This document shows positions 39,348 through 41,765 of a DNA stretch of 45,132 nt, piece after piece. The DNA lies in contig CAKSYU010000016.1 of the NCBI GenBank assembly GCA_934524965.1, positions 1-45,132 of the forward strand, in the 5' to 3' direction. The first letter of the stretch is position 1. Each line of letters opens with the position of its first letter. The notes beneath the pieces are model-generated. The model saw nothing but the letters and a program-made list of their open reading frames with translations. It was not told the DNA's origin and did not search any database. This stretch comes from an uncultured Angelakisella sp. Its GTDB lineage: Bacteria; Bacillota; Clostridia; Oscillospirales; Ruminococcaceae. The position numbers were made by a program, and so were the translations under genes.

Positions 39348-41765
39348 ATGATGAAAAAGAGGATACTGGCTGTACTGCTGGCTTTCGCCATGCTGCTCAC
39401 CACCGCCTACGCCATGCAGATCTATGTGGACGGCGGCGACCTTGGGTGGCAGGAACCGTTGACGCTGGAGGTGGAAAGCGGCGACAGCATCGATAATGTC
39501 AAGCAGAAGATCCAGAACACGGGTGTTTTGGTAGATGGGAAATGTCTGTATTTTGGCGGCAGATTTTTGGAGAACGGCCGCACCTTGGCGGATTATAATA
39601 TCCAGAAAGAAAGCACCTTGCAGCTGACCACCTTTCTGGAGGTCGCCACTTCAAAGGAACTGTCTGATGCTTTGAATTCCGATGCTGCAGTCATCCGTTT
39701 GACTGGGGATATTGAGATCGCCGCCTATAGGACAGTGAAAAGAGTGGTGACCATCGATCTGAACGGCCACCTGCTGAAAACAACCGGCGGGGGCAGCAAC
39801 CTGATCCATGTCATAGAAAATGGCGAGCTGACGCTGGTTGACAGCAAACCCAATGCCGTTCGCAAGTTCGATAAGAGCAACGCCCTGTGGAAGCTGGCAG
39901 ATGAAACCACCGCCGAAGAAAATATCATAGAGGTAAAGGGCGGCGCCATCACCGGCGGCGGCTACTACACCGGCGGCGGTATTTACGTGGCGGACGGCGG
40001 AACCCTCCTCATGCGGGGCGGCAATATCGTGGGCTGTACGGCGCAGCAGGGCGGCGGTGTCTATGTGAGGGAAGGCGGCAGATTTGAGATGTCCGCCGGC
40101 ACCGTTACCGGCTGCACGGCCGGGCAGGAGGAAGGCAAGACGGCCAACGGCGTGTTTATCGCGGCGGGCGGCCGGTTTACGCAGTCCCCCGGCGCCCAAA
40201 TCACCGGAGAGGTCATCGGGGCTTATACAGTCGCCTTTTTGTCAGATGGCGAAAATATCGCTCCACCCCAAATTCGTGCCAACGCCCCTGCCGCCCGACC
40301 TGCCGACCCCACCAAAGAGGGCTATACCTTTACCGGCTGGTACAAGGGCGAAGAAAAATGGAACTTTGCCGATGCCGTGACCGAAGCCCTGACCTTGACG
40401 GCAAAATGGACGGCGAACCGGTACACCATTACCTTTGATACCGCCGGCGGCAGCGAGATCGCGCCCATCACGCAGGACTACGGCACCGCCATTACCGCTC
40501 CGGCGAACCCCACCAGAACAGGCTATACCTTCGCGGGGTGGGATCGGGAGATCCCCACCACTATGCCCGCAGGGGATATGACCATCACCGCCCGCTGGAC
40601 GGTGAATCAATATACCATCACCTTTAAGCCGGAAAACGGCGGGGAAGATATCATTATCAAACAGGATTACGGCACCGCCATTACCGCTCCGGCGAACCCC
40701 GCCAGAACGGGCTACACCTTCGCGGGGTGGGATCGGGAGATCCCCACCACTATGCCGGCGGGGAACATGACCATTACCGCCCACTGGACAGTGAACCAAT
40801 ATACCATCACCTTTAAGCCGGAAAATGGCGGGGAAGATATCATTATCAAGCAGGATTACGGCACCGCCATTACCGCTCCGGCGAACCCCGCCAGAACGGG
40901 CTACACCTTCGCGGGCTGGGATCGGGAGATCCCCACCACTATGCCCGCAGGGGATATGACCATTACCGCCCTGTGGAATGGGAACGGGATCAGTGTTATT
41001 GTAAGGCTTCCGTCGGAGGACGACAAAGACGGGGTGGAGATCGGTGCGATTCATCGGTGGGGCGCGTGGCGCTCCAACGGGGACGGGACGCATACCCGCC
41101 GCTGCATGGTAAGCGGCTGTCTGGAGCAGCAGAGTGGAAAGTGCCATGGCGGAACGCCGAACTGCACCCAGCGGGCAAGCTGTATCCTGTGCGGGGCAAA
41201 ATACGGCAAGACCGACCCCGCCCGCCACGCCGCACTGGAAAAGCTGGAGGCGATAGCGGCGACAACGGCGACCAACGGCAGAGTGGAATGCTGGCACTGC
41301 ACCGCCTGTGATAAGTACTTTGCGGACGCGAACGGTCAAAAGGAGATCACCTTGGAGGATACCATGACCGAGATCGTGCCGCTGAGCATTATACAGGGCA
41401 ACGATGCCCTGTGGAAAAAGGGAGAGGGCGGCACGCTGACCTTCCGCTGCAATGTGTTTTATCAGGACTTTACCGAGGTGCTGGTGGACGGCACGCCGCT
41501 GACTGCCGAAAGCTACGAAAAACGGGAGAGAGAGGGCGACATCGTTGTGGAGCTGCGGGAAAGCTACTTGGAACAGCTGACCGAGGGAGCGCACACGCTG
41601 GTGATCCGCTCGGCAAGGGGAGATGCTGCGACCCAGTTCACCGTGGAGGCAGCCCCCAATGAGGCTCATTCGGTAAGCTGGTGGGTCTACGCGGCGGCGG
41701 TGGCTGCCTTTGCGGCAGGCACCTGCATCGCCATCGTTTCCCTCCGCCGCAAAAAGGCGGACTAA
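39348..41765 (+). CDS. secreted, membrane-anchored protein with N-terminal ubiquitin-like domain and InlB-type repeats
   Basis: 805 residues. Signal peptide 1-22 (KKRILAVLLAFAMLLTTAYA). Residues 23-98 are a ubiquitin-like domain: it starts MQIYV as ubiquitin starts MQIFV, keeps TLEVE, NVKxKIQ and NGRTLADYNIQKESTLQL, and by my hand alignment is identical at about 39 of 72 aligned positions. There is a 3-residue insertion in the first hairpin, Arg replaces Lys48, and no C-terminal LRGG exists. Then come beta-helix-like GGGIYV/GGGVYV repeats (about 100-290), a degenerate and three near-identical 63-residue InlB/Listeria-Bacteroides repeats (355-543), a Cys-rich segment (about 569-650), an Ig-like ALWKKG domain and a membrane anchor (778-800, tail RRKKAD). 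AAGGAGG lies 6 nt before the ATG. Acting as a surface adhesin or host-contact protein is inference. Confidence 0.88.
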   Translation: MMKKRILAVLLAFAMLLTTAYAMQIYVDGGDLGWQEPLTLEVESGDSIDNVKQKIQNTGVLVDGKCLYFGGRFLENGRTLADYNIQKESTLQLTTFLEVATSKELSDALNSDAAVIRLTGDIEIAAYRTVKRVVTIDLNGHLLKTTGGGSNLIHVIENGELTLVDSKPNAVRKFDKSNALWKLADETTAEENIIEVKGGAITGGGYYTGGGIYVADGGTLLMRGGNIVGCTAQQGGGVYVREGGRFEMSAGTVTGCTAGQEEGKTANGVFIAAGGRFTQSPGAQITGEVIGAYTVAFLSDGENIAPPQIRANAPAARPADPTKEGYTFTGWYKGEEKWNFADAVTEALTLTAKWTANRYTITFDTAGGSEIAPITQDYGTAITAPANPTRTGYTFAGWDREIPTTMPAGDMTITARWTVNQYTITFKPENGGEDIIIKQDYGTAITAPANPARTGYTFAGWDREIPTTMPAGNMTITAHWTVNQYTITFKPENGGEDIIIKQDYGTAITAPANPARTGYTFAGWDREIPTTMPAGDMTITALWNGNGISVIVRLPSEDDKDGVEIGAIHRWGAWRSNGDGTHTRRCMVSGCLEQQSGKCHGGTPNCTQRASCILCGAKYGKTDPARHAALEKLEAIAATTATNGRVECWHCTACDKYFADANGQKEITLEDTMTEIVPLSIIQGNDALWKKGEGGTLTFRCNVFYQDFTEVLVDGTPLTAESYEKREREGDIVVELRESYLEQLTEGAHTLVIRSARGDAATQFTVEAAPNEAHSVSWWVYAAAVAAFAAGTCIAIVSLRRKKAD
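40410..40976 (+). repeat. three tandem 189-bp repeats inside the surface protein gene
   Basis: Units 40410-40598, 40599-40787 and 40788-40976, each encoding 63 residues with NPxRTGYTFAGWDREIPTTM. Units 2 and 3 are almost identical in DNA, which points to recent duplication or gene conversion. Confidence 0.9.

Follow-up and report, generated by a model that had tools for sequence, protein, structure and literature searches.

A ubiquitin homologue without its conjugating tail at the start of a predicted surface protein from an uncultured Angelakisella species

The window analyzed here consists of positions 1 to 45,132 (45,132 nucleotides [nt]) of contig CAKSYU010000016.1, assembly GCA_934524965.1, from an uncultured Angelakisella sp. 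On its plus strand lies a gene (39348..41765) encoding a protein of 805 amino acids (aa) in which a ubiquitin domain, here called the window domain, directly follows a predicted signal peptide. The window domain is a true homologue of ubiquitin, with a resemblance far beyond chance, but it cannot be conjugated as ubiquitin is, because the C-terminal diglycine is missing. We propose that the protein is exported and anchored in the membrane, as its sequence predicts, and that ubiquitin deprived of its conjugating tail would serve as a module at the outer tip which binds an extracellular target, a reading to which we assign a probability of roughly 0.5.

The window domain is a homologue of ubiquitin

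Searched alone against Pfam, the window domain matches the ubiquitin family PF00240 with an E value of 1.7e-14 and 53.8 bits (cut-off, 25.4), and the family is also recovered in the whole 805-aa protein (E = 8.7e-13). A sequence search of the PDB retrieved 315 distinct sequences at E ≤ 0.01, and the best chain consisting of a single ubiquitin reached E = 1.8e-17. Modeled with AlphaFold2 on 68 sequences taken from the window and from the loci described below, the domain shows the beta-grasp order of elements, with a mean pLDDT of 90.4 and a pTM of 0.77. When the model was compared with the PDB by Foldseek, all 50 matches listed (best E = 3.3e-9) were ubiquitins or structures that contain ubiquitin or a variant of it, with TM scores (query) of 0.81 to 0.88 for 48 of them and of 0.31 and 0.25 for the other two. 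A ubiquitin domain placed directly after a signal peptide had been claimed in the original prediction, made from the letters alone, and both profile and fold bear this out, as does the frame, in which the Met codon that follows LLTTAYA starts at position 39414 and 76 codons run from there to 39641.

Aligned with canonical ubiquitin, the window domain is identical at 40 of 73 positions, a recount that replaces the 39 of 72 of the original prediction and leaves standing the closeness it had claimed. The 3-residue insertion, which lies in the beta1-beta2 hairpin, and the 1-residue deletion reported there were seen again, as were the retention of K27, K29, and K63 and the replacement of K48 by Arg and of I44 by Tyr; K6, K11, and K33 are lost. 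The absence of a terminal GG, also reported there, is plain in the alignment, and with R72F and R74E the RGG end used for E1 activation and conjugation is gone, so that a conjugatable ubiquitin was rejected. The L8/I44/V70 face, the surface bound by most ubiquitin-binding domains, is replaced by G, Y, and T, and the substitutions in the face comprise L8G, R42C, I44Y, K48R, Q49F, H68Q, V70T, and R72F. Over face and tail, 12 of 15 positions differ from ubiquitin, compared with 21 of 58 others (Fisher P = 0.003; P = 0.034 when core positions are left out), for a 15-position set picked after the sequence had been seen. ThiS/MoaD-type proteins have the beta-grasp fold as well, and a relationship with them was rejected since the window domain is too close to ubiquitin in sequence. 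These carriers are reported to end in two glycines and otherwise to show no sequence similarity to ubiquitin (PMC3352274).

Prokaryotic proteins that begin with ubiquitin

A pattern scan with one genome per species yielded 460 stretches, 422 of them confirmed relatives, of which the best 80 were kept; with survey loci added, 143 loci were fetched in total, and 95 of the 143 contain ubiquitin-bearing frames. We read 113 such frames, 96 from the first 80 loci, a number that includes duplicates of at least two genes, which were fetched a second time with different ends (L079/L081 and L019/L133). By a crude hydrophobicity rule, a signal-like hydrophobic stretch precedes ubiquitin in 84 of the 113 frames, and in 78 of these 84 a similarly crude rule finds a signal-peptidase-like site immediately before the ubiquitin start. 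Library scans for other domains covered 73 of the 113 frames, with matches taken at E ≤ 0.01, and detected type IX secretion system (T9SS) tails in 7 frames by Pfam and 8 by NCBIfam, autotransporter beta-domains in 6, dockerin in 6, B-repeats in 6, and IPTL-CTERM in 2; PEP-CTERM exceeded its cut-off in L134. Sortase-like tails were recognized by eye in L001, L003, L007, L029, L071, and L086, the last with weak NCBIfam support below the cut-off. It is because ubiquitin-fronted frames carry T9SS, autotransporter, dockerin, IPTL-CTERM or PEP-CTERM, and sortase-like ends that we place the domain, provisionally, at an outer tip.

Some carriers consist of little else. A signal, ubiquitin, and a C-terminal hydrophobic end make up the frames of L017 (134 aa), L062 (130 aa), and L076 (130 aa), and a signal peptide with one ubiquitin alone, at 96 to 97 aa, is encoded by each of four tandem genes in Pedobacter cryoconitis (L018:7529-8928) and by two genes of Flavobacterium (L021). 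RGG is retained in 5 of the 113 frames. In L025, L026, L028, and L072, RLRGG is retained and followed by further sequence, which would in principle offer eukaryotic deubiquitinases a cleavage site.

Such domains are infrequent in the sampled groups, which are defined only through the loci that supplied their center genomes. At E ≤ 0.001, PF00240 was found in 5 of 394 genomes in the order of G001, in 5 of 289 in its phylum (4 over the cut-off), and in 4 of 296, 4 of 194, 2 of 198, and 2 of 200 in the phyla of G003, G007, G008, and G010, counts which all include the center genome, picked for having the domain, and some weak matches (E of 1e-3 to 1e-6). Strong matches (E < 1e-10) outside the center numbered, in the same order, 4, 1, 3, 3, 1, and 0 genomes, or 0 to 1.6% per group. 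None of the 14 named control genomes in each family search had PF00240. The window domain matched none of 50,697 phage records, and the L007 domain matched 3 of 72,556 plasmid records.

Ubiquitin as a probable inserted module

Locus L091 (genome G353) encodes an InlB B-repeat protein (PF09479) that lacks ubiquitin but has a beta-helix-like region, B-repeats, a Cys-rich part, and a C-terminal hydrophobic end behind a signal peptide identical to that of the window protein at 15 of 25 aligned positions; its body is about 40% identical to that of the window protein, and the alignment begins at window residue 98. On pRUMAL01, a complete, circular, mobilizable plasmid of the named strain Ruminococcus albus 7, a gene for signal, ubiquitin, and body comes directly after a gene without ubiquitin. 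The two bodies are 38% identical over 151 positions, and that of the next gene is weakly similar (27%, E = 4e-4). Since two unrelated bodies carry the module at the same junction, the simplest reading would be that ubiquitin was gained as a plug-in unit; loss may instead have occurred in either case. The 'ubiquitin family protein' of pRUMAL01 (WP_013483628.1) shares with the window protein a signal followed by ubiquitin at Met1 and differs in its body; its ubiquitin is near canonical, at 81.9% to the L007 domain. Along this part of the plasmid (L144:3372-5761), genes for small proteins with predicted export, one of them bearing ubiquitin, follow one another, with genes for a dockerin protein and a DDE-type integrase/transposase nearby.

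Relatives of the window protein

A search with the ubiquitin region returned 5,258 proteins at E ≤ 1e-3, eukaryotic polyubiquitins included, and 85 of the 120 matches listed combine PF09479 with PF00240. With the body only (residues 100 to 290) as the query, 4,404 proteins were retrieved at E ≤ 1e-5, and PF00240 is present in 119 of the 120 matches listed; the remaining one (P0276) starts within the ubiquitin domain and looks truncated. The make-up of the whole protein is common to about 200 relatives among the matches listed, which differ in length and repeat number while ubiquitin is retained. One of them (P0331), with a body 85% identical, carries the source label 'InlB B-repeat-containing protein [Angelakisella sp.]'. 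Angelakisella is a gut genus of the Oscillospiraceae, Clostridia, so that the gene probably comes from a gut bacterium.

In 17 of the 66 distinct ubiquitin domains of the family (39 of 200 sequences, the window included), the middle reads QQYLYF, which is more canonical than the GKCLYF of the window. P0241 has QQYLYF on a body 100% identical to that of the window over residues 100 to 290, with 47 of 74 positions of its ubiquitin identical to ubiquitin; because of this pair, the window domain is likely to derive, by drift or recombination, from an ancestor closer to ubiquitin. Over the 66 distinct domains, mean conservation is 0.98 in the core and 0.90 at other positions. Several of the substituted residues hardly vary across the family, namely, Tyr4, a Trp in the beta1-beta2 loop, Tyr44, Phe49, and Phe72 (ubiquitin numbering).

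Comparison with known secreted ubiquitins

The precedent named in the original prediction, a secreted ubiquitin of Bacteroides fragilis, is well founded. In two papers (PMC3352274, PMC5705921), BfUbb (gene ubb) is described as secreted, cleaved at ubiquitin residue 1, devoid of a terminal glycine pair, small and single-domain with a processed band of about 9 kDa, and 63% identical to human ubiquitin. Going by this published description, the window domain is like BfUbb in lacking GG, would be like it in starting at residue 1 if the putative signal peptide is cut as predicted, and is unlike it in its lower identity to ubiquitin, its rebuilt face, and its enlarged hairpin; moreover, BfUbb is a small released domain, whereas the window domain opens an 805-aa protein with B-repeats and a predicted anchor. 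The secreted ubiquitin of Globodera rostochiensis has a signal sequence before ubiquitin and a short C-terminal extension, and it acts in host plant cells (PMC5705921). The window protein resembles it, by description, in the predicted signal before ubiquitin, but the nematode protein is eukaryotic. With respect to eukaryotic ubiquitin itself (PF00240), sequence and fold are homologous, while the window domain is without GG, R42, R72, and the L8-I44-V70 face and is predicted to be exported.

A secreted bacterial ubiquitin cut at residue 1 is hence already known from BfUbb, and what would be new is its place in front of multidomain surface proteins with an anchor. In the open-licence literature, which leaves aside most subscription papers and all preprints, we found no bacterial precedent besides BfUbb and no report of ubiquitin heading anchored surface proteins in several phyla and with various anchors.

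Textbooks usually present ubiquitin as a hallmark of eukaryotes. In the proteins described here, which are predicted to lie at the surface of unrelated bacteria, its fold comes first in the mature chain and lacks its chemistry, and nature thereby offers an experiment on what persists of ubiquitin once conjugation is removed. The domain is short and expressible, which makes a binding role at the surface testable, and ubiquitin matches in metagenomes are not automatically eukaryotic contamination.

Possible roles of the exposed ubiquitin

In the reading that we favor, signal peptidase would cut at Met1 of ubiquitin, since the predicted cleavage A-Y-A/MQIYV, whose fit was judged by eye, makes residue 23 the Met1, and ubiquitin would be exposed as the first mature domain of a protein presumably located at the surface. 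The beta-helix and B-repeats would form an adhesin-like body and stalk, and the rebuilt face, with its nearly invariant aromatics (the loop Trp, Tyr4, Tyr44, Phe49, and Phe72), may contact a ligand. More broadly, and more tentatively, eukaryote-type ubiquitin might be a prokaryotic display module, drawn from protists, spread at low frequency, and fitted to many anchors, which in the window lineage became an aromatic adhesin tip; its carriers would include at least Bacillota, Bacteroidota, Verrucomicrobiota, Actinomycetota, and Pseudomonadota and perhaps some archaea.

Several observations weigh against the favored reading. In 29 of the 113 frames no hydrophobic stretch precedes ubiquitin, which is therefore not exported by all carriers; 21 of these 29 are in loci with actinobacterial titles or, in three cases, in a genome drawn from the phylum of such a center. 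The face also varies more than the core in the other bacterial carriers, and unconstrained drift of the surface would yield part of this pattern. When relatives were selected by their bodies, mean pairwise identity was 0.868 for ubiquitin and 0.927 for the adjoining body, and because ubiquitin is the less conserved of the two, no special selection on it is evident; the values of 0.955 and 0.881 in the set selected by ubiquitin come from a ranking by ubiquitin similarity, and special conservation of the domain was rejected for that reason. The structure model of the whole protein (pLDDT, 51.9) is too poor for use. Finally, the tree described below leaves the origin and the number of transfers unresolved.

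The strongest rival, which we still judge unlikely and which the original prediction had raised as use of a stable surface fold, is that the domain is a stability cap that protects the exposed N terminus and binds nothing. The ubiquitin fold is fast-folding and protease-resistant, and a cap would agree with a conserved core under a variable surface, with the position of ubiquitin exactly at the cleavage-like site in nearly all stretch-bearing frames, with its attachment to unrelated bodies, and with the lack of any extra conservation over the body among relatives selected by their bodies. However, the minimal proteins of L017, L062, L076, L018, and L021 leave little body to protect, and a cap fits poorly with replaced positions, aromatics among them, which are nearly invariant in the window family. 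Harm to related competitors by the ubiquitin domain, as an antibacterial effector, would find a model in BfUbb, whose mature N terminus corresponds to ubiquitin residue 1 and which antagonizes other B. fragilis strains (PMC5705921), and the tandem genes of Pedobacter and Flavobacterium for signal and single ubiquitin would suit it; the window protein is instead large, multidomain, and predicted to be anchored rather than small and released, which makes such a role improbable here.

Mimicry or titration of host ubiquitin, that is, engagement of the receptors or enzymes of the host, was suggested in the original prediction and was not borne out for this family. The identity to ubiquitin speaks for it, as do the inhibition of in vitro ubiquitination by recombinant BfUbb (PMC3352274) and the action in host cells of secreted ubiquitins from some plant-parasitic nematodes (PMC5705921). 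Yet the window domain has lost L8, I44, V70, R42, R72, and GG, and L8, I44, and V70 are jointly retained in 52 of the 113 frames. The same layout occurs, by title, in isolates of sea, lake, and soil, among them Neptunomonas antarctica, Thiocapsa marina, Rhodoferax lacus, and Cocleimonas flava, which are presumably free-living; we consider mimicry very improbable. That eukaryotic ubiquitin DNA was misjoined to bacterial contigs during assembly or binning could be suspected, since the 80 carriers fetched come mostly from metagenome bins or uncultured organisms, but this is contradicted on several sides and has next to no probability: the window gene sits among ordinary bacterial genes, its signal peptide is in frame, about 200 listed relatives have the same make-up, the layout is present on the complete circular plasmid of R. 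albus 7, a named strain, and the titles of 15 of the 80 loci refer to named or numbered strains rather than to metagenome-assembled genomes (MAGs).

Origin of the domain

In a tree of 174 domains and 75 columns, 6 of 171 inner branches are starred, and bacterial and eukaryotic rows are intermixed (25 changes). The window family forms one group (99, starred), which groups in turn with L001, L029, L047, and L041 (91, not starred), three from Bacillota and one from a Bacteroidales bin; by eye, the beta1-beta2 hairpin is longer by 2 or 3 residues in the window, L001, L029, and L047. The best identity of the window domain is 60.6% to rows taken as eukaryotic and 63.4% to bacterial rows. Of the phylogeny with eukaryotic and bacterial ubiquitins called for in the original prediction, the part that stands is that the nearest neighbors are bacterial secreted ubiquitins; the tree as a whole is poorly resolved. 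A bacteria-only signature (SDSIDNVKQKIQ with LADYNIQ) was rejected because some rows taken as eukaryotic share it, e.g., P0029, labeled eukprot m51a1_g9327, presumably Mastigamoeba.

Because many carriers have near-canonical ubiquitin sequences and presence is patchy, descent from a eukaryotic ubiquitin gene is the simplest reading of the sequences, and spread among bacteria may have occurred by horizontal transfer. Acquisition from a eukaryote, as originally suggested, is thus retained as the simplest source, but direct capture by the window lineage is not required: the window copy belongs to a broader prokaryotic class of the same layout. A eukaryotic origin has been proposed for BfUbb too (PMC3352274, PMC5705921).

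The gene, its product, and its surroundings

The features of the gene are collected in Table 1. The four stretches of PF09479 score 169.3 bits (E = 1.9e-50; cut-off, 27), and the B-repeat region shows 189-nt direct repeats. The start of the L091 body matches PF20585 (E = 1.5e-5), which Pfam describes as a putative pectate-lyase-like adhesive domain. In the Pfam scan of the protein, no family exceeded its cut-off in the Cys-rich segment, which is well conserved in the window family and also present in L091. Inspection of the C-terminal hydrophobic stretch with RRKKAD revealed no LPXTG motif.

Table 1. Features of the ubiquitin-fronted gene and its product in the window
Feature	Position	Strand	Basis or remark
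GC-rich hairpin CAAAAGCCGCCCGCGGGCGGCTTTTG, 3' of the upstream htrA-like gene	39191..39216	+	Read directly from sequence
Promoter-like ATGGCA-18-TATAAT	39270..39299	+	Consensus match only
Shine-Dalgarno-like AAGGAGG	39335..39341	+	From sequence; 6 nt before ATG
Start codon ATG	39348	+	Best start; ATG 39351 as alternative
Predicted signal peptide MMKKRILAVLLAFAMLLTTAYA, residues 1-22	39348..39413	+	KKR, hydrophobic core, A-Y-A site; by eye
Ubiquitin domain, residues 23-98	39414..39641	+	Pfam PF00240, PDB sequence search, model and fold search
Beta-helix-like region, residues 99-290	39642..40217	+	Weak PF13229 match below cut-off; L091 counterpart fits PF20585
Four InlB B-repeats (List_Bact_rpt)	40224..40982	+	PF09479; outer limits by eye
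Cys-rich segment, residues 566-680	41043..41387	+	Sequence; conserved in family
Weak Shr-like_HID/CBM_X2-like segment, residues 691-756	41418..41615	+	E = 0.012 and 0.044, below cut-offs
Predicted transmembrane anchor (WWVYAAAVAAFAAGTCIAIVSL) and RRKKAD tail	41679..41762	+	Sequence; transmembrane call by eye
Stop codon	41763..41765	+	Sequence

A two-component system and the htrA-like gene lie upstream; on the other side are HIGH_NTase1, on the opposite strand, and then acetate kinase. The hairpin, missing from the list of the terminator scan, is likely the terminator of the htrA-like gene, so that the ubiquitin gene is likely transcribed on its own. The GC content is 0.518 in the ubiquitin segment and 0.590 in the whole gene, and the GC content at third codon positions (GC3) of the segment (0.711) falls inside the range of the remaining gene (0.707 to 0.773); a claim of foreign DNA from base composition was therefore not made. 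GC3 of the whole gene (0.728) is lower than that of four neighboring genes (0.784 to 0.810).

Other ubiquitin-bearing loci

The class of frames without a signal, mostly from loci with actinobacterial titles, comprises L022, L030, L031, L040, L046, L052, L056, L064, L067, and L137. In it, ubiquitin is mostly followed by a TGVVTY-like region, for which no Pfam family was found in L046, and two or three such genes often lie in tandem. L031 and L040 are titled as Bifidobacterium breve MAGs and carry this class, which is otherwise known here from different actinobacterial bins; these species names may be wrong. Ubiquitin genes are also present in Methanothrix/Methanotrichaceae bins (L015, L037, and L038), two with signal-like starts, and represent either archaeal carriers or binning errors. 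A Myxococcaceae bin encodes a 76-aa ubiquitin that ends in RLRGG and has no signal peptide (L044:1259-1486), beside a second, diverged ubiquitin-like frame (L044:767-1174), on a contig of 6.9 kb.

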